Notes under the pieces: generated by a model | The model's input: only the letters and a program-made list of their open reading frames with translations | Told to the model about the DNA's origin: nothing | Databases searched by the model: none | From: an uncultured Bacteroidales bacterium | GTDB taxonomy: Bacteria > Bacteroidota > Bacteroidia > Bacteroidales > Bacteroidaceae | Assembly: GCA_902773055.1 (NCBI GenBank) | Contig: CACYCZ010000073.1 | Location: 1-34,200, forward strand | Reading direction: 5' to 3' | DNA length: 34,200 nt | In this document: one piece after another, positions 173 through 9,801 of the stretch | Layout: each line of letters begins with the position of its first letter | Numbering within the stretch: the stretch's first letter is position 1 | Program-made: the position numbers and the translations under genes

Positions 173-275
173 AGGAGTTTATGTTCAGCGTCGGTGAACG
201 TATGTTTTGCACTGGTGAACATATGTTTCGCATCGGTGAACGTACGTTCAGCAACGGGGAATATAAAATGCAACG
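173..275 (+). repeat. Copy 1 of a five-unit 21-bp palindromic repeat element
   Basis: Five tandem units of about 21 bp (173-193, 194-214, 215-235, 236-256, 257-275). The three central units begin GTGAAC and follow GTGAACRTAYGTTY, which approaches the perfect palindrome GTGAACGTACGTTCAC, and then a 5-bp joint such as CAACG. The first unit lacks the GTGAAC start and the last is degenerate (19 bp, ending GCAACG). The same architecture recurs at 19801-19905 and 32965-33069 in the same orientation. Similarity to copy 3 continues past the array through CTCCC to TTTTTCTC at 308-315. Units are contiguous without spacers, so this is not a CRISPR. It lies upstream of mdh and its promoter. Function is unknown. 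Confidence 0.85.
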
Positions 276-400
276 GGGCGAAAACACATACTCCTCCCAT
301 ACCTTTATTTTTCTCATAGCCGGTATATAGGACGCATACCATAATCAGAAAAAAAACAGAAAACATTCCCCGCAGTTAACACTATAACAAAATATTGTGC

Positions 401-408
401 TAAATTTG
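401..408 (+). promoter_or_regulatory. Probable mdh promoter (-7 box)
   Basis: TAAATTTG matches TAnnTTTG and lies 48 nt before the mdh start codon. It is placed as expected for a Bacteroidota promoter with a leader of about 40 nt. The -33 region is not clear. Confidence 0.5.
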
Positions 409-456
409 CATTATAGAATAGTCTACTATCACAAAAACACATAAAACAATATCATT

Positions 457-1443
457 ATGAATTTTTTAACAAATGACAAGCTTGTTATTGTAGGTGCCGG
501 TGGCATGATCGGCTCCAACATGGTTCAGACAGCAATGATGCTGGGTCTGACCCCCAATATCTGTCTCTATGACATTTTCGAGCCAGGTGTACACGGTGTA
601 GCTGAAGAAATGTATCACTGCGCATTTCCAGGTGCCAATATTACATGGACCGTAAACCCCGAAGAGGCATTTACCGGTGCCAAATACATCGTTTCCTCCG
701 GTGGTGCTCCCCGCAAGGAAGGCATGACCCGCGAAGACTTGCTCAAAGGTAACTGCAAGATTGCTGCTGAATTTGGTGACAATATCAAGAAATATTGTCC
801 TGATGTAGAGCATGTCGTAGTCATCTTCAACCCTGCCGATGTTACAGCACTTACTGCACTCATCCACTCAGGTCTGAAACCCAATCAGCTGACCTCACTT
901 GCTGCTCTTGACTCCACACGTCTGCAAGAAGCACTTGCACAGGAATTTGGTGTACAGCAGGACAAGGTAACGGGTGCCCATACCTACGGTGGCCACGGCG
1001 AGCAGATGGCTGTATTTGCATCACAGGTCAAGATTGACGGCAAACCTTTGGCTGACATGAATCTGTCGGCTGAGAAATGGGCAGAAATCAAGCACAACAC
1101 CATTCAGGGTGGTTCCAACATCATCAAACTGCGTGGCCGCAGCTCTTTCCAGAGCCCGGCATACAATGCCATCAAGATGATAGAGGCTGCCATGGGCGGT
1201 GAAAAATTCACCTTGCCTGCCGGATGCTTCGTCAAGACCGACAAATACCAGCATGTCATGATGGCTATGCCTACAACTATCGACGCAACAGGTGTACACT
1301 ACACTGCCCCCACAGGCACAGCTGAGGAAATGGCTGCCCTGGAGGCTTCCTACCAACACCTCTGCAAGATGCGCGATGAGCTGGTAACTTTGGAGATCAT
1401 TCCACCCGTTGCAGAATGGGGCAAGATGAATCCGAACCTATAA
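457..1443 (+). CDS. mdh: Malate dehydrogenase (NAD-dependent)
   Basis: This enzyme interconverts malate and oxaloacetate with NAD(H) in the cytoplasm. In Bacteroidales it runs mainly towards malate in the fumarate/succinate branch. The 328-residue product has the N-terminal Rossmann glycine motif GAGGMIG (residues 13-19) and substrate-binding arginines in APRKEGMTR (Arg86, Arg92). It also has Asn125 in FNPAD, the LDSTR motif (Asp152, Arg155) and the catalytic His180 in GGHGEQM. Length and motifs are normal for the lactate/malate dehydrogenase family. The gene is transcribed alone: a promoter box lies 48 nt upstream and a strong hairpin follows the stop. It shares C4 metabolism with pckA at the other end of the window. 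The enzyme family is secure; substrate preference for malate is inferred from overall resemblance to Bacteroides malate dehydrogenases. Confidence 0.93.
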   Translation: MNFLTNDKLVIVGAGGMIGSNMVQTAMMLGLTPNICLYDIFEPGVHGVAEEMYHCAFPGANITWTVNPEEAFTGAKYIVSSGGAPRKEGMTREDLLKGNCKIAAEFGDNIKKYCPDVEHVVVIFNPADVTALTALIHSGLKPNQLTSLAALDSTRLQEALAQEFGVQQDKVTGAHTYGGHGEQMAVFASQVKIDGKPLADMNLSAEKWAEIKHNTIQGGSNIIKLRGRSSFQSPAYNAIKMIEAAMGGEKFTLPAGCFVKTDKYQHVMMAMPTTIDATGVHYTAPTGTAEEMAALEASYQHLCKMRDELVTLEIIPPVAEWGKMNPNL

Positions 1444-1551: not shown

Positions 1552-4500
1552 TCAGTATGCTGTGACTTGAGGATAAATTCTGGCTGCCAACGATGACGAA
1601 GACCCCATGATGCCTATTCTGCAACGCGAAACTCTCTGAAATGCTGACACTGCATCCTGCAGCATTCTGGCTTCACGGGCATCTATATTGTCGGCACAGG
1701 CATCGACAAACAGAGAATCCCCGGGAGAAAATTCCTTCAACATTGCCGACAAGCCTAATGCCAAACTCAGACAGACCACATAGAGTTGACCTGCAGAGAG
1801 CGAACTGACCTTAAAACGCTGGTCAAGCCTGTCGCGGCAGATAATCTCCATATCCAGTTCATCGGGCACTACACTGAGGAAGAAAGAGGATTTCATCCGG
1901 CGCAATTGGGCATTGGCCGATTGCAACAGGACCGTAAACACCACTCTCTGAGCTGCCTGACGGAACTTGCCCCCGTCAGCACTGCCCATCAATTCGCACA
2001 ACCTGTCCCACAAGGCGAGTTCAGCCTCCAGCCTGTGTTTCTCCTCTTCACAGGATGCCAACTTGTCAATACTGTCCTGATGCTTATCCAACAGGAACTG
2101 TATCCGGGCAATATTTTTTTCAATATCTTTCATGTCAGCCGACAGGAGTTTCTGCTGCTCCCTGTACTGCAACGCATTACCGATAAACTCCTCCAAAGGT
2201 CTGTCTTCAGACTGAATAAGTTGAAGTATCTGTCCGTCGGCTTTTTCCATCTCGGCATTGATATTGTCAAGCGCAGCCTTTTTACCGTCAATTTCCTTAC
2301 GCAAAAGATTCCAGTCACACTTGGCAGAGAATATTTTCTCAAGCTCAAAATACTGGAGTGGCGCATTCTCACTGTTGAAACGGGCAATCTGAAAATCCAG
2401 GTCGGAACTCAGCCCGTGGAGTTCCTGCTCTGCCTGAGCAAGCATGTCCTGCAGCATGGTCATATTGGCCGACATTCCGTCATAATGTCTGCAGACTTCC
2501 ATGTATTTGTCTAACGCCTTACTCTCCTCCGTCTGGACAGCAATCATGTGGTCTACATGGGATCTTTCTACATTCTCCACCATGGCATTGCTGAACATCT
2601 TGGCCATTTCTGAACGGTGTACTTTGATTTTCTCTCCCAAGCTTTTTTCTATTCCCCGGTCATCAGACATCTGGCCGCGGCAAAAATCCAACTCTCCCTG
2701 CAAGGAAGATATATCAGTACGGAGCCTGTACACAACGGCATCCAGTGCAGAAACCTGTCCTTGCAAATCTGTCCATTTGGACACAATGGCAGACATCTCA
2801 GCTACGAAGCCTTCATAATTGCTCTTGTACTTTTCCTTCCATAGCGGCATAGTCATCATGAGTTCCAACTGAGAGTACATTTCAGCACTCCTGTTGTCAT
2901 TGTGCTTGATACGTCGCTCCAAATTGCTTACCAGAGACTCATGGACACTGTTGACGGCATTGGATTCAGTGAGTTTTTTGTTAACGTCCGCCATAGCTGT
3001 CATCAGTTTCTGTATCTTACCGTTAATCTCATTTATCACAACCTGATGGTGATTATATTCGGCATTACGGAGTTTCTCACTCTGCAGCTCGCGCGTAGCA
3101 TTGTCGAGCAGATGTGTCAGCAGCATTGTACGGTTGGCACGATTGACCGACGTGGACGTATCACCAAAGGATGCATCCAAGCCTTTGTAATCTTCCCACT
3201 GAGCAAGCATACGGGACGTACGCGCCTTGAGTTCTTCCAGCATTCTGCCTCTCTCCTCCAATAACAATTGTTTCTTCTGCCTTTGGGAAAGAGTATCCAG
3301 GTAGTTTTTCCGGCTATTTTCATAATCAGCCTTCGCCTCTTCAAAATCCTGAGTCAGATGGTTGATAAGATCACTCGTAGCCTGTGCATGATAGGGATGA
3401 TGGGCTGCACCGCAAACAGGACAAGGTTTACCCTCTTTCAACTGTTTACGCATATCCAGCAAATTCTTATGCTGACCCAAAATAAGCACTCTTTGGGCAG
3501 TCTCAAACATCTTTTTCTTTTCAAACAGAACAAGCGAGACATGAGGCACCTCTGTGTCCAGTTTCTTCAAGTCAGCATTAATACCTCTGATTTCGTTTGC
3601 CAATTCATCCTGACGCTCATAGCTGTCAGCAATGCTTATCCACAACTCCCGAGCATTGCGGGAATCTCTCTGCAAGTCAGAGAAATAAATAATCCTCTGC
3701 TGGAGTTCGGCGGAATTCAATCCTTGATTGGCCTGAATATGAATATTTAATTCAGCCCGCAGGGAAGAGAGCTGGGACTGCAAGTCATTATATTGGTTTT
3801 CAAGGCTTGATTTCAACACCTTATCAGCTTGGATCTCTTTCTGTATCTCATTAAGCTTGGACCTACAGTCCTGAGTATCCACATATATGTCATGGAGTTT
3901 TGCCATATTGCCCTTAACCTCACCGATTTTCTCTATCATCGGACGGTGCATAGCAACGGCCTGCAAGTCATTTTTCAGTTGCTGGCGCAGCTTCAGCCTA
4001 TCCTCCATCTCCGCGGTCTTGTCTTTTATCTCCGACTGCAAGGATGTAACCCGTTCCTCCAACCGGGATATCTCTAAACATACACGGTTTATATTCTCTT
4101 CCCATGCCCTGATTTCACCTTCGGCAGAATAGGCTTTCCCAATCAGAGGCAATGCGTCTACATATTCCCTCTGACGCAATGCCATGCTCTCCCTTATTCT
4201 CTGAAGACTGTCTGCTGATGCCTCCTTCTCAGACTTAGTGCTGCGCATATCCTGCTGGATCAAGGCAATTGAGTGACGGTAGACATCTATTTCCTTCTTC
4301 TTGGCAACAATGGCATCATATAATGACTGAAAAGGCTGCACCTGATCAAACCTGTCTAACTGGGCTTTCTGCTCGTACAATTTATTGACTGCAGCCTGTG
4401 CATCTGTCTGAACCAGTTTGAGTTCCTCCTGATGTGCCATAGCCTCAGAATAACGGTCAAACCAACTGAGGTATTTCTCCACTTCAAGGAGTGCAACCCT

Positions 4501-5214
4501 GTCTTTTTCCAGTTTCCCCTTCTCCATAATCATCGTCTCCTGAAGTTTGGAAAATTCTTCTTCAGAGAAACGATTCCTGCTGATTCCTTCTAATAGGCTT
4601 ATCATCTTTTCATAGTCTTTACGCACCTCCATACGGCGAAGATATACCAGCCTAGACATTCGGCCATATATCTCCGTTCCCGTGAGATGTTCCAACATAC
4701 GACTTCTCTCCTCAGATGTCACCGAGAAGAAATGGATAAACTGACCTGGAGAAAGAATCACTGCTGACCTGAACTGGGAAAAAGTCAATCCCAAAAGTGC
4801 ATGAATACTTTGGCGGACCTTCTCCGCGCCCTGCCACTGCTGACTGCCAGGAGACAACTGTTTCAATATATGGTTTACTTCAACCGGAGCAGAAGGCTTA
4901 TTGCATCGGGCAGACCATTCTGCCTCATACTTCTGGCCGCCCTCAAGGGAAAACTGCAACCGTACTCCCCCCATGACCGCACCAGGCGATAGAAAATCAC
5001 TATACGGAATCTCAGACATTCCGTCCACAGAGGATTCGTGTTTTCTCCCATACAAGGCGATACATACAGCATCCAAAAAAACCTTCAATTCAATACCAGT
5101 CCGGCCAGTGACAGCAAACAAACCTGCCCTTTCCAAAGGCTTACGCATAAAATCGACAGTATGCTTCCCTTGGAAAGAGAGTATATTATTTATTTCTATT
5201 ATTTCGATTCTCAT
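1552..5214 (-). CDS. sbcC: SbcC/Rad50-like SMC-family protein with degenerate ATPase site
   Basis: SbcC is the ATPase and coiled-coil subunit of the SbcCD (Rad50-Mre11) DNA-end-processing complex. The 1220-residue product has the family layout: N-terminal ABC half, long coiled coils, zinc hook CPVC (Cys598, Cys601) and C-terminal ABC half. Recognisable landmarks are DAVCIALYG after Walker A and LTGTEIYG near residue 180. The nucleotide site is not canonical. Walker A GxTGxGKST is replaced by GRTGIELKV (37-45), the Q-loop Gln by Pro156 (LSPGQF) and the signature SGGE by SAGQ (1139-1143 region). The Walker B glutamate is Ala1172 (LFVDAC) and the H-loop His is Ser1205. The frame is open throughout, so it is not an obvious pseudogene. 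It starts 14 nt after the sbcD stop, last in the rpoN-led run. The homology is secure. Loss of ATP hydrolysis, and perhaps of binding, is inferred. Confidence 0.85.
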   Translation of the reverse strand: MRIEIIEINNILSFQGKHTVDFMRKPLERAGLFAVTGRTGIELKVFLDAVCIALYGRKHESSVDGMSEIPYSDFLSPGAVMGGVRLQFSLEGGQKYEAEWSARCNKPSAPVEVNHILKQLSPGSQQWQGAEKVRQSIHALLGLTFSQFRSAVILSPGQFIHFFSVTSEERSRMLEHLTGTEIYGRMSRLVYLRRMEVRKDYEKMISLLEGISRNRFSEEEFSKLQETMIMEKGKLEKDRVALLEVEKYLSWFDRYSEAMAHQEELKLVQTDAQAAVNKLYEQKAQLDRFDQVQPFQSLYDAIVAKKKEIDVYRHSIALIQQDMRSTKSEKEASADSLQRIRESMALRQREYVDALPLIGKAYSAEGEIRAWEENINRVCLEISRLEERVTSLQSEIKDKTAEMEDRLKLRQQLKNDLQAVAMHRPMIEKIGEVKGNMAKLHDIYVDTQDCRSKLNEIQKEIQADKVLKSSLENQYNDLQSQLSSLRAELNIHIQANQGLNSAELQQRIIYFSDLQRDSRNARELWISIADSYERQDELANEIRGINADLKKLDTEVPHVSLVLFEKKKMFETAQRVLILGQHKNLLDMRKQLKEGKPCPVCGAAHHPYHAQATSDLINHLTQDFEEAKADYENSRKNYLDTLSQRQKKQLLLEERGRMLEELKARTSRMLAQWEDYKGLDASFGDTSTSVNRANRTMLLTHLLDNATRELQSEKLRNAEYNHHQVVINEINGKIQKLMTAMADVNKKLTESNAVNSVHESLVSNLERRIKHNDNRSAEMYSQLELMMTMPLWKEKYKSNYEGFVAEMSAIVSKWTDLQGQVSALDAVVYRLRTDISSLQGELDFCRGQMSDDRGIEKSLGEKIKVHRSEMAKMFSNAMVENVERSHVDHMIAVQTEESKALDKYMEVCRHYDGMSANMTMLQDMLAQAEQELHGLSSDLDFQIARFNSENAPLQYFELEKIFSAKCDWNLLRKEIDGKKAALDNINAEMEKADGQILQLIQSEDRPLEEFIGNALQYREQQKLLSADMKDIEKNIARIQFLLDKHQDSIDKLASCEEEKHRLEAELALWDRLCELMGSADGGKFRQAAQRVVFTVLLQSANAQLRRMKSSFFLSVVPDELDMEIICRDRLDQRFKVSSLSAGQLYVVCLSLALGLSAMLKEFSPGDSLFVDACADNIDAREARMLQDAVSAFQRVSRCRIGIMGSSSSLAARIYPQVTAY

Positions 5215-5228
5215 AACAACATCAGGAC

Positions 5229-6446
5229 TTAGGATAAGTCGGCATTCTCACCCGTTCTTTTTACATCGGCAACTAAGCGTGCCATTTCATCCATCATGTC
5301 TTCACTGTAGCGCTGATGGTACATTTCACGGATCATCCGCCCTGGAACCAATTGCTGCAGGTCGTCTGCAGACAAATCTGGATAGGTTTCTTCCATTGCC
5401 TTCTCAGACATTACCCTCTCTATCCGGCATAATTTCACACAGCGCTCTGAAGCCATCGCCTGTAAGGTTTCAAGCATCTCAGGAGTAGGGTTATCCTCAC
5501 GTATTTTCAACTCCACATAGGGGTAGGAAACGCTATCGTCATTCCGGGAAATTTTATCAAAAGAAGCCAGATATTTTTCTGCTTCCTTATAAGAACAACC
5601 CGAATCGGAAGGTATTGTCAGCAATTTTCGAAGAGGCTTGTATTCCAAATGCTTAATCTTGACAGAATCTTTGGATTCAATATCAACCATATTGATACCC
5701 AAACTGTAATCCCGCTCTTCAAAAGAAAGAGACAGGGGACTTCCGGCATACCATATATTATCGTAGCCAGCTATCGCCTGCGCCTGATGGATATGGCCCA
5801 AAGCAATATAAGCAACTTTTGACGCCAATGGCGTAAAATCCATGACATCTACGCCGTATCCAATAGCATAATCTTTTCCATTTGTCTGAAGAGTACGAGC
5901 CCCCTTGGCATATCCGTGAGCCATAACAACTATCGGCATATCTGAGAAACGCTTCGATACCATTTTGACCAACTGTTCATAGATGCCGTTATCTGCCATT
6001 CCTTCCCTGTCTACAGGAACGGCTAGGATAACTATCTGCTCGTCAGGGTGCTCAATGGCATTAACAGGAATACATAATTCTTCGTAGTCAATTTCCCCAC
6101 GTCCATTTCTTGGTATCTGGGAACGAACCTGAACCCCTACACGATGAAAAACAGACAGCGAGGAATTCACATATGAGACATCATCACTATCCCCCGTGGT
6201 CAAAATGACGCGCATCTGGGGATTATCCCGTGTCAATTGCATCAAGAAATCCCAAAATATACGTTCATCTTCACCCGACAACAATGTACCGTCAAAGATA
6301 TCTCCAACGGCCAGAAAGACATCCGGTTTATATGACCGTACCTGCGACAACAACCATTTCAGGAAATGCTCGTGCTCCTCAACCCTATTATTTCCATATA
6401 AAAGATGCCCTATATGCCAATCGGCAGTATGGAAAATTCTCATCAT
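5229..6446 (-). CDS. sbcD: SbcD/Mre11-like phosphoesterase with altered GNHD motif
   Basis: SbcD is the Mn-dependent nuclease subunit that pairs with SbcC. The 405-residue product has phosphoesterase motifs DWH (Asp9, His11), GDIFD (Asp49), AHGYA (His177) and GHIH (His218, His220). The third motif, normally GNHD, reads GDSD (85-88): the metal-bridging Asn is Asp86 and the catalytic His is Ser87. In Pyrococcus Mre11 the corresponding His85 is needed for nuclease activity, so this protein is probably impaired or inactive as a nuclease. The start overlaps the cysS stop in an ATGATG context, suggesting translational coupling; either Met could be used. It is directly followed by sbcC, whose ATPase site is also degenerate. 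Family assignment is secure; loss of activity is inference. Confidence 0.87.
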
Positions 6447-7927
6447 TTATTCAACTTCCAAGTCACGCCATCGCGTGTATCTTTTACTTCAAAGCCTAAC
6501 GCTGCCAATTCTTCCCGAATGCGGTCACTCGTTGACCAATCCTTATTTACTTTAGCTTTCTGCCGTATATCCAACAGAAGGTCAATGGCCTTGGCATAGG
6601 ATTCCTCCCGCTCGCCACTGCCACTCTCCTCCATCCTGAGGCCTAAGATATCAAAAGAGAATGTATACAATACTTTCTTCAACTCCGTCAGTGCGTCAGG
6701 AGTTATTGTATTCTGCTTATCTGCCAACTGATTTATCACACGGCAAGCTTCAAAAAGATGGCTGATTACTATCGGGGTATTCAGGTCGTCATCCATAGCA
6801 TCATAGCACTTCGTGGCAAGCTGGTCAATATAGGCTCTGTCTATCTGTCCATCCACAACAGGAGTAATGCGATCTAACTGCTTGACAGCATCAAACAAAC
6901 GCTCCAACCCCTTGCTACTGGCTTTCAAGGCTTCGTTGCTGAAATCTACCGTACTACGATAGTGAGCCTGCAGGATAAAGAAACGTATCGTCATCGGAGA
7001 ATAAGCTTCGTCCAATTTGTCATGATTACCGGTAAAGAACTGCTCCAAAGTAATAAAATTGCCCAGACTCTTGCCCATTTTCTGTCCGTTAATCGTTATC
7101 ATGTTGTTATGCATCCAGTAATGTACCATGTCATCGCCTTGGCTCGCCACGGCTTGGGCTATCTCACATTCATGATGAGGGAATACCAAATCCATGCCTC
7201 CGCCGTGTATGTCAAAATGACTGCCCAGATACTTTCTTCCCATTGCCGTACACTCTGTATGCCATCCTGGGAAACCTATGCTCCAAGGACTCGGCCAACG
7301 CATAATATGCTGTGGCTGTGCTTTTTTCCACAAGGCAAAATCTACTTGGTTATGTTTTTCATTGACACCGTCCAAAGTGCGGGAATTATTAATTACATCC
7401 TGAAGGTTACGATTGGATAACTTTCCATAATGATATTTCTGATTGTACTTCTCCACATCAAAATAAACGCTTCCCTCACTCACATAGGCATAGCCATTAT
7501 CAAGGATTTCCTTCACCAATTCTATCTGTTCGATGATATGTCCTGTAGCATGAGGCTCTATACTCGGCGGCAATACCCCCAGAGCATCCATGGCTTGGTG
7601 ATAGCGCAGAGTATAGTATTCAGCTACCTCCATCGGCTCAAGCTGTTCCAGACGCGCTTTCTTGCTTATTTTGTCCTCTCCTTCATCAGCATCATGTTCC
7701 AAATGGCCGACATCAGTTATATTCCTGACATAACGAACCTTGTAACCTATATGTTTCAGGTAGCGGAACAGGATATCAAACGTTATTGAAGGTCTGGCAT
7801 GACCCAAATGAGGGTCGCCATATACTGTAGGTCCGCATACATACATCCCGACATGGGGAGCATTCAGGGGCTTGAATAGTTCCTTGGTACGCGTCAGGGT
7901 ATTGTAAATAAATAATTTATGTTCCAT
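6443..7927 (-). CDS. cysS: Cysteinyl-tRNA synthetase
   Basis: This class I aminoacyl-tRNA synthetase charges tRNA-Cys with cysteine. The 494-residue protein has the opening [15 protein letters not shown] with the HIGH-type signature HLGH, and the KMSKS-type loop KMGKSLGN. It also has conserved zinc-site residues, including Cys31 in MYVCGP, GWHTEC, and the HH of FPHHECE. The C-terminal anticodon-binding part ends in [15 protein letters not shown], as in other bacterial CysS. The gene begins 8 nt after the ispG stop, and its stop overlaps the sbcD start by 4 nt. Length and motifs are ordinary. Confidence 0.96.
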
Positions 7928-7935
7928 CTTATTTG

Positions 7936-9801
7936 TTATTTTATTTGTCCGTCATTTCGGAGAAGCTGTAGCAGATGTTCCACGGCATCTTCTTCCGGTA
8001 TATTTTTTTCTACACATTCCTTGCCTCTGTATAGGCTTATCTTACCTCTGCCGGCACCGACATAGCCATAATCCGCCCCTGCCATTTCGCCAGGACCATT
8101 GACGATGCAACCCATTACAGCCACTTTCAGATTGGCCATTCCCTGAGTAGCTGACTTTATTCGGGCTATTGTTGCCTGCAAATCATATAATGTACGTCCA
8201 CAACCGGGACATGAAATATACTCTGTACGAGTACGCCGTAAGCCTGCTCCCTGAAGAATCGAAAATGCCGTATGGCTCAGCAATCTGTTCATCGCTTCAT
8301 TGCGCGTATCTGGAGCAGAAAGATACAGCCCGTTACACAACCCGTCAAACAACACTGCGCCACAATCCAAAGAAGCTTCTATCTGTATATCCTCTTCCTG
8401 CTTGAGACCATAGCTATAAGAGAAGAATAGCACGACTGGATTACAGAGCTTATGATTTGTCATACGATGAATCAATGAGCGGAATTCTCCTACATGATTT
8501 ACGTGAGTACTCTGGGCTATCACAACAACTTCGGAATGGCGGCGCAGACATTCTTCGACTGCATTGTCTATCAGATGACAGGGCAGAAAGAGGAATTTCA
8601 TGTCAGCCTCATACACGTCAATCTGAGACAACATCTGAAATGTAAAGGCAGGATATGTGTCTGGGGTATTCCGCCACACACCAGCGTCAACAATATATGC
8701 TCCCTTGAAGTCTTTCTCCTCATGGGGAAGTTTGTCACCGCAATACAGGAAATCGGGCTGCACCTTATCAATCTGGCTGAAACGGTCTGCTATTACAATT
8801 GGAGCATTAGCACCGCCTACATTCCCTACAGCACGCGTCTCACGCGGCTGAGGATCTACGAAGTTAAAGCTTTCGGCAACACGGCCTCCTATACGGCGCT
8901 TGTCGGCTCGCTGACTGACATAATCTACAATTTTTCGCGCCACGGGTATCTCGTGTTCCGGGCTTTCACTCAAGGATACCCTGATGGTATCGCCTATTCC
9001 GTCAGACAACAAGGCTCCGATGCCCAATGCGCTCTTAATTCTTCCGTCTTCTCCTTCACCGGCCTCCGTCACTCCCAAGTGCAACGGGTAGCGCATTGAC
9101 TCTGCCTCCATCACACTAGCTAACAGGCGTACCGAACGAACCATCACTGCCACGTCGCTGGCCTTTATGGATATGACGACATCACGGAAATTTTCCTTTT
9201 TACATATACGCAAGAACTCCATACAGCTTTCCACTATACCTCTTGGCGTATCGCCGTATCGGCTCATGATGCGATCGGAGAGTGAGCCATGGTTCACTCC
9301 TATACGCACTGCCGTATGATGTGCTTTACATATTTTCAGAAAAGGTACTAAGCGGTTTTCTATTTTTTTAAGTTCTTCCTGATATTCTTCGTCGGTGTAC
9401 TCCAAATGCCTGAAAGTGCGTGCGGCATCAACGTAGTTGCCGGGATTAATGCGTACTCCCTCCACGATTTCGGCTGCGACATCGGCCACCGCCGGATTGA
9501 AATGTACATCTGCTATCAGCGGCGAAAACAGACCCTTACGATGCAGTTCCCGACGGATATTCCTGAGGTTCTCTGCCTCTTTGGTTCCCTGTGTTGTCAG
9601 ACGGACATAATCTGCTCCTGCACCTATGATAGCCTCACACTGTTCAACGCAACCTTCGGTATCTGTTGTCGGCCGGGTCGTCATACTCTGCAGCCTGATG
9701 GGGTACACGCCCCCCATAGGTATCTTGCCCACGTTGACTATCGTACTCTGCCGACGCCGGTAGTTAAAATATGAAATATCTTTTCGTTGATTTTCAGCCA
9801 T
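7936..9801 (-). CDS. ispG: 4-hydroxy-3-methylbut-2-enyl diphosphate synthase (IspG/GcpE), long form
   Basis: IspG converts 2-C-methyl-D-erythritol 2,4-cyclodiphosphate to HMBPP, the penultimate step of the MEP isoprenoid pathway, using a [4Fe-4S] cluster. The 621-residue product is the long, three-domain form known from Bacteroidota, Chlamydiae and plants. It has an N-terminal TIM barrel ([27 protein letters not shown]), a central inserted domain, and a C-terminal iron-sulfur domain. Cluster cysteines are visible at CPGC (Cys531, Cys534) and in [11 protein letters not shown] (Cys565). It lies 6 nt after purE and 8 nt before cysS in the same run. It supplies the isoprenoid precursors for the menaquinone side chain, whose ring genes menB and menE are nearby. 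Confidence 0.95.

Follow-up and report, generated by a model that had tools for sequence, protein, structure and literature searches.

The 34,200-nucleotide stretch analyzed here (the window; contig CACYCZ010000073.1, assembly GCA_902773055.1, from an uncultured Bacteroidales bacterium of the Bacteroidaceae) carries on its minus strand, at 1552..5214, an sbcC-derived gene of 1,220 codons in which the five ATPase motifs are lesioned and the coiled coil and zinc hook are kept. Alignment with canonical relatives places GRTGIELKV at the Walker A position (residues 37-45; 5080..5106), where GNTGAGKST is expected, with the G42, K43, and S44 columns altered, so that the GxxGxGKS/T of the SbcC/Rad50 ATPase class is missing. 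The other landmarks of that class are missing as well, as the Q-loop Gln is Pro156 (4747..4749), the signature reads LSAGQ instead of LSGGE (residues 1139-1143; 1786..1800), the Walker B Asp-Glu pair is D1171-A1172 (1699..1704), and the H-loop His is Ser1205 (1600..1602). Walker B Asp1171 and the D-loop Asp1178 are retained. Between the two head halves lie the coiled-coil arms, with bounds of our own choice at residues 205 to 1075 (1990..4602), and at their apex a predicted zinc site, the hook CPVCGAAHHP (residues 598-607; 3394..3423) with its CPVC at 598-601. All these features are on the minus strand. The first-pass annotation of this DNA had listed the same lesions, the open 1,220-codon frame, and the surviving CPVC, and each is borne out by comparison with the canonical relatives; the frame is a real open reading frame (ORF).

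The gene for the partner nuclease lies beside it. SbcD (405 amino acids; 5229..6446, minus strand) is lesioned in motif III, which by alignment (6183..6194, minus strand) reads GDSD (G85-D-S-D88) and so fails the canonical GNHD with its catalytic His; GNHD is found in 15 of the 16 other aligned SbcDs, and the remaining one (L016) has GSHD. The alignment pairs Ser87 of the window SbcD with E. coli residue 84, which is His in the wild type, and PMC6265447 describes the E. coli H84Q variant as nuclease deficient. The window protein is altered at the same position as these E. coli H84 variants but differs in that its change is natural and is joined by the loss of the SbcC ATPase motifs. Ser is also present at residue 84 of the deposited E. 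coli chain 6s85_A, where we take it to be engineered. The window SbcD passes both PF00149 (metallophosphoesterase; 37.2 bits, cut-off 21.5) and TIGR00619 (121.3 bits, cut-off 77.65), and its C-terminal segment, presumably the part that docks on the base of the coil, resembles that of canonical SbcDs.

Judged on homology, the window gene is an SbcC by descent that, as a machine, fails the ATPase definition. Its relationship to SbcC/Rad50 extends over the N- and C-terminal head halves and the coil, it is paired with sbcD at the locus, and it has the CXXC hook. Matches to NF007600 (E 7e-51) and TIGR00618 (E 6e-26) are both below the curated cut-offs, as they are for the canonical SbcC L004 from the same genus, and the genus profile A1 matches chain 6s6v_C at E 1.8e-112, the match covering the head halves and some of the coil. 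A Pfam search of the window protein returned no family at E<=0.001; L004 is above the Pfam cut-offs of AAA_23, SMC_N, AAA_29, and SbcC_Walker_B.

For the window gene, a sequencing error or a pseudogene is rejected. The SbcCs of the related genomes G014 (53% identical to that of the window) and G001 (42%) are also motif-dead in open frames, which makes sequence error unlikely. All three genes of this window clade (G000, G014, and G001) are uninterrupted, and random substitution at 5% of the window gene sites created 7.3 stops on average and left the frame open in 0 of 300 simulations. A second, active copy is unlikely too, since the window genome (2.6 Mb, 95% complete) has a single match to the window SbcC and this lies where a canonical relative has its own: the order ispG (7936..9801)-cysS (6443..7927)-sbcD-sbcC, with both conserved upstream neighbors on the minus strand, is common to the window and canonical G010, and G001 shows it as far as sbcD, where a contig break divides the gene over two contigs. 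With TIGR00618, the window genome yields only one 15.5-bit match besides the window SbcC; as canonical SbcCs score 141 bits (G030) and 133 bits (G010), a normal second copy should show.

The loss of the ATPase motifs is not confined to the window clade. An SbcC match is present in 18 of the 19 genomes of the window's genus, and among the 17 full-length SbcCs read, 11 are canonical, five are motif-dead (L001, L002, L003, L016, and L017), and one (L005, from G013) is half-way, with intact Walker A, Q-loop, and H-loop, a signature reading LSSAE, and DS at Walker B. The 18th genome, G011, is left out of this count, its SbcC being matched in two pieces (L018/L019); this SbcC is of a different type, with the hook CPVCGRVIE and intact motifs, and the assembly is reported to be 5% contaminated. 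In genus g13, 16 of 17 full-length loci (L024-L040) are canonical and one, L040, from a single-contig 2.92-Mb assembly, is dead; a further genome of this genus, G172, has a headless form, described below. On a tree of rpoB, found in 27 of 30 chosen genomes (G004, G007, and G008 missing), the state changes six times between canonical and lost, corresponding to about six losses provided that the motifs are not regained: in the window clade, in G006, G017, G077, and G172, and in the ancestor of g9 and g17. Canonical G010 is placed between the window clade and G006 (supports 95/86 and 91/75), with an rpoB that fills 31% of the columns. A tree of the coil alone, made quickly and supported by the Shimodaira-Hasegawa-like approximate likelihood ratio test only, agrees in nesting the losses among canonical genes. 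It groups L004 with L001-L003 (97), L016 with L007 (99), L040 with L036/L038 (100), L062 with L034/L035/L037 (100), and the headless genes of g9 and g17 with each other (100), with L017 as a long branch.

SbcD motifs are altered in four of the six motif-dead SbcC lineages, namely, motif III in L001, motif II (GDVFN) in L002, motifs I, III, and V in L016, and motifs I, II, III, and V in L040; they are intact in the half-way case L005. The C-terminal segment of SbcD is recognizable in all six lineages. From this distribution, loss of the ATPase seems to precede loss of the SbcD motifs. In all nine affected genomes, RecN retains a Walker A reading GETGAGKS, a Walker B with FDE, and, in an ITH context, a His like that of the H-loop, and thus we do not see a decay of the whole SMC-type ATPase class; the RecN signature was left unchecked, as the pattern used was that of SbcC and matched none.

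In two lineages, the head itself is lost. A profile search of 298 genomes of the family recovered ORFs, in Paraprevotella-named genomes and in a related rumen genus, that match positions ~218-1070 only, that is, coil and hook with neither head half. A profile of these headless forms (A4) recovered the same ORFs and two shortened ones. The loci were gathered by whole-length profiles and not by the hook pattern, and of the 30 fetched, 28 have the C..CG..HH hook; hook retention in a further scan of 80 named loci is not counted as evidence, since the hook was its search criterion. The stop-to-stop frames of the hooked genes measure 859 to 1,006 amino acids in 27 of the 28, and L052 extends upstream to 1,471. 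No SbcD match occurs in 19 of the 28 genomes with a hooked headless gene. The other nine have one together with additional SbcC matches, the SbcD being on another contig or, in G175, ~100 kb away, and none was found beside those headless loci whose flanks, of up to 4 kb, were read. Because automatic gene calling overlooked sbcD in the full-length loci L219 and L223, where another search located it, the absence of sbcD next to headless genes rests on profile and flank searches. No headless form appeared outside the family when the headless profile was run at E<=1e-15 on 295 genomes drawn evenly from the order; its matches there were in the window genome and in a pair of long ORFs (1,265 and 1,141 amino acids).

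The databases searched do not recognize these headless proteins. Four of them gave two sub-cut-off matches of no meaning in Pfam, and in NCBIfam only coiled-coil-type models (SMC, Rad50, SbcC, ASRP, and a helix-rich protein), far below cut-off. Given that neither the window protein nor these four have a Pfam ATPase domain above cut-off, genes of this kind will probably be annotated as hypothetical or, by virtue of a neighboring sbcD, be misread as active SbcCD. The model predicted for the headless protein L048 consists of helices throughout and, at hook residues 453 to 472, a loop (mean predicted local distance difference test score, 79.7; predicted template modeling score, 0.29). Its Foldseek matches resemble SMC arms at a query template modeling score of <0.2 and are uninformative beyond the coiled coil.

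Rod and hook, as read from these sequences, persist under constraint despite the loss of the motifs. Most proteins have a coil span (window positions 225-1055) of 831 to 836 residues, namely, 23 of the 27 canonical, 5 of the 6 motif-dead, and 27 of the 28 hooked headless ones, with 834 residues as the commonest length (13 of the 27 canonical and 12 of the 28 headless), and C598, C601, G602, H605, H606, and P607 are identical in all 61, a set that omits L005 and the more distant L041-L043. The ratio of nonsynonymous to synonymous substitution rates (dN/dS) is 0.040, 0.097, 0.142, 0.081, and 0.156 in five pairs of headless genes, a sixth being saturated, and 0.055 to 0.164 in four of six canonical pairs, the other two being saturated. 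For the window gene and L002, the proportions of nonsynonymous and synonymous differences are 0.29 and 0.77 (the latter saturated), and 0.27 of second codon positions differ compared with 0.57 of third positions. The two heads of canonical L006 and L007 are 72% and 70% identical and their coils 41%, and the corresponding values for motif-dead L016 and canonical L007 are 42%, 31%, and 42%; judged by these identities, the coil holds its normal pace while the head drops its extra constraint. Thus, the claim of the first-pass annotation that the architecture was selected as ATPase function disappeared is supported by the open frame, the excess of third- over second-position change, and the conserved coil length and hook. 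A second conserved stretch, D940-R972 in window SbcC numbering, is also common to all three classes, canonical, motif-dead, and headless; with its D940, Q954, L958, W968, and R972, it is largely retained even in forms that lack the apex and may be considered a candidate partner site.

We believe that the window gene is probably a true SbcC ortholog turned into a noncatalytic, zinc-dimerized rod of fixed length that acts as an ATP-independent scaffold or spacer. For the clade as a whole, the balance tips somewhat toward the view that the selected function of SbcC is that of such a motor-free rod, with the ATPase as a removable accessory that disappeared on about six occasions among the genomes sampled, yielding motor-dead SbcCs (with a dead SbcD or not) and a new standalone family of headless hook-rods. 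In molecular terms, two hairpin arms would be joined by one zinc ion between two CXXC hooks to form a constitutive rod, which could hold two partners apart or together as scaffold, spacer, or tether. DNA ends, the chromosome, and the envelope are all possible partners. In the window species, the inert SbcD perhaps is still docked near the coil base. The rod role may have been a second job of SbcC in this clade, next to an ATPase job that later became dispensable, and decay would then have proceeded from the ATPase motifs to the SbcD motifs in some lineages and to the head and the sbcD neighbor in two. PMC6969161 proposes the Rad50 hook as a rather stable dimerization interface and describes its features as applying to the bacterial complex as well. 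The persistence of the arm suggests that it has a useful job without the motor, and a structural role, as put forward by the first-pass annotation, is still the best reading. That annotation missed the SbcD lesion, the recurrence of ATPase loss, and the headless end state.

Several observations weigh against a selected rod. No A1-profile match was found in 137 of the 298 family genomes (A4 finds a form lacking the apex in two), indicating that many members of the family can do without the gene. Evolution is fast in the window clade, with an rpoB path to G014 of ~0.04 and an SbcC identity of 53% where RecN has 74%, so that part of the change in SbcC reflects relaxation, and dS of the window gene is saturated, which makes its dN/dS unobtainable. 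The coil of L017 is only weakly constrained (ratio of second- to third-position change, 0.67), and motif-dead G001 and L017 have all five SbcD motifs intact, implying that not every lineage has a completely inert complex. Finally, the related genomes G045 (L205) and G103 (L206) have, at the headless locus, 615-amino-acid forms that lack the apex; hence, the hook is not always needed, even though this pair remains constrained (dN/dS, 0.083). The fast window clade, the weak L017 coil, the two intact SbcDs, and the many genomes without the gene together give slow decay or partial activity some plausibility. Under slow decay, SbcCD would be dispensable in the clade, catalysis would have gone first, and the remainder would be a fading remnant with no job. 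The relaxed constraint on the head fits this scenario, but we regard it as unlikely, given that neutral change of the window gene put stops in every simulation and the three window-clade genes are nevertheless uninterrupted, that headless forms with a low dN/dS in all five measurable pairs are common to two genera, and that the headless coil is near-constant in length and keeps its hook in most loci. We are more skeptical of the idea that an enzyme survives in part, through unusual ATP binding or an ATP-free action of the head with SbcD still cutting, and consider it highly improbable. The intact SbcDs of G001, L017, and the half-way L005 speak for it, as does the predicted head fold of L003, which persists and has Foldseek matches among the heads of E. 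coli SbcC (7yzp_C and 6s6v, for example), although the model included canonical rows from which the head may be inherited. It is difficult to reconcile, however, with the concurrent loss of the Walker A Lys, Walker B Glu, and H-loop His in the window protein, with the missing His in the window SbcD, the residue whose change to Gln disables the E. coli nuclease (PMC6265447), and with the loss of the entire head in related lineages.

The remaining two explanations assign the rod to another ATPase. As a regulatory subunit, it would pair via hook or coil with a different SMC-type ATPase such as RecN or SMC. RecN is above the TIGR00634 cut-off in 16 of 16 genomes tested and the hook chemistry would allow dimerization, but the seven Pfam-identified neighbors of one headless locus (L053) include a RecQ helicase and no SMC-type ATPase, and we find this explanation quite unlikely. 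As a paralogue, a possibility raised by the first-pass annotation, it would work alongside an active SbcC encoded at another locus. The nine hooked-headless genomes with SbcD and extra SbcC matches might be taken to favor this, but the other 19 have no SbcD match, and we consider this explanation scarcely credible. For the window genome, a paralogue plus active copy is rejected on the single SbcC and the canonical gene order; the search for a second canonical sbcC found none in the 95% complete assembly.

The coiled coils and hooks of Rad50/SbcC proteins are usually interpreted as components of a machine that runs on ATP. In this group of gut and rumen bacteria, the motor has repeatedly been removed in nature, the rod is near-constant, and the hook is almost invariant, which amounts to an evolutionary separation-of-function experiment. 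The rod may merit keeping by itself, and the affected lineages offer natural material for finding what it holds. Compared with E. coli SbcCD (PDB 6s6v and 7yzo), the likeness lies in head and coil homology, the CXXC hook, and the adjacent sbcD, whereas the usable ATPase motifs are gone in the window protein and the head is gone in its headless relatives. DMS3 and SMCHD1 are SMC-hinge proteins without the SMC ATPase and thus similarly reuse a dimerization apex of the SMC world without its motor, but they are eukaryotic, have an SMC hinge instead of a zinc hook, and do not descend from SbcC. The archaea-specific SMC-related proteins (ASRPs) ClsN and Sph share a coiled coil and zinc hook with the window protein, and their NCBIfam models match its coil weakly; they are archaeal, however, of other descent, and reported in PMC9389158 to have Walker A and B motifs, 13 of 111 candidates having been discarded there as too diverged or lacking such motifs. 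Membership of the window protein in this family is rejected on its coil-only match (51.5 bits, cut-off 300) and its lesioned Walker motifs. Among the literature matches listed, no title or abstract opening mentioned a motif-dead or headless SbcC.

Some features of the surroundings may be added. The amidase-like gene downstream of headless genes was not used to infer function, as it follows none of the g9 loci read. In 9 of the 11 g17 loci, the gene immediately after the headless gene is of the Amidase_3 type (N-acetylmuramoyl-L-alanine amidase; e.g., L053:10605-11243), identified by Pfam in L053 and by BLAST clustering in the others; its product has a lipoprotein-like N terminus, and in eight measured loci the amidase gene overlaps the headless gene or starts within nine bases of it. 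Many headless proteins (L048-L067 and L207-L214) begin with a short tail of hydrophobic and basic residues (MKFFRKS, MNFFKKK, and MSLFGKR are examples), a feature that is not universal. In the window itself, the sbcC-derived gene converges with a gene for malate dehydrogenase (457..1443, plus strand), which is given as context only.

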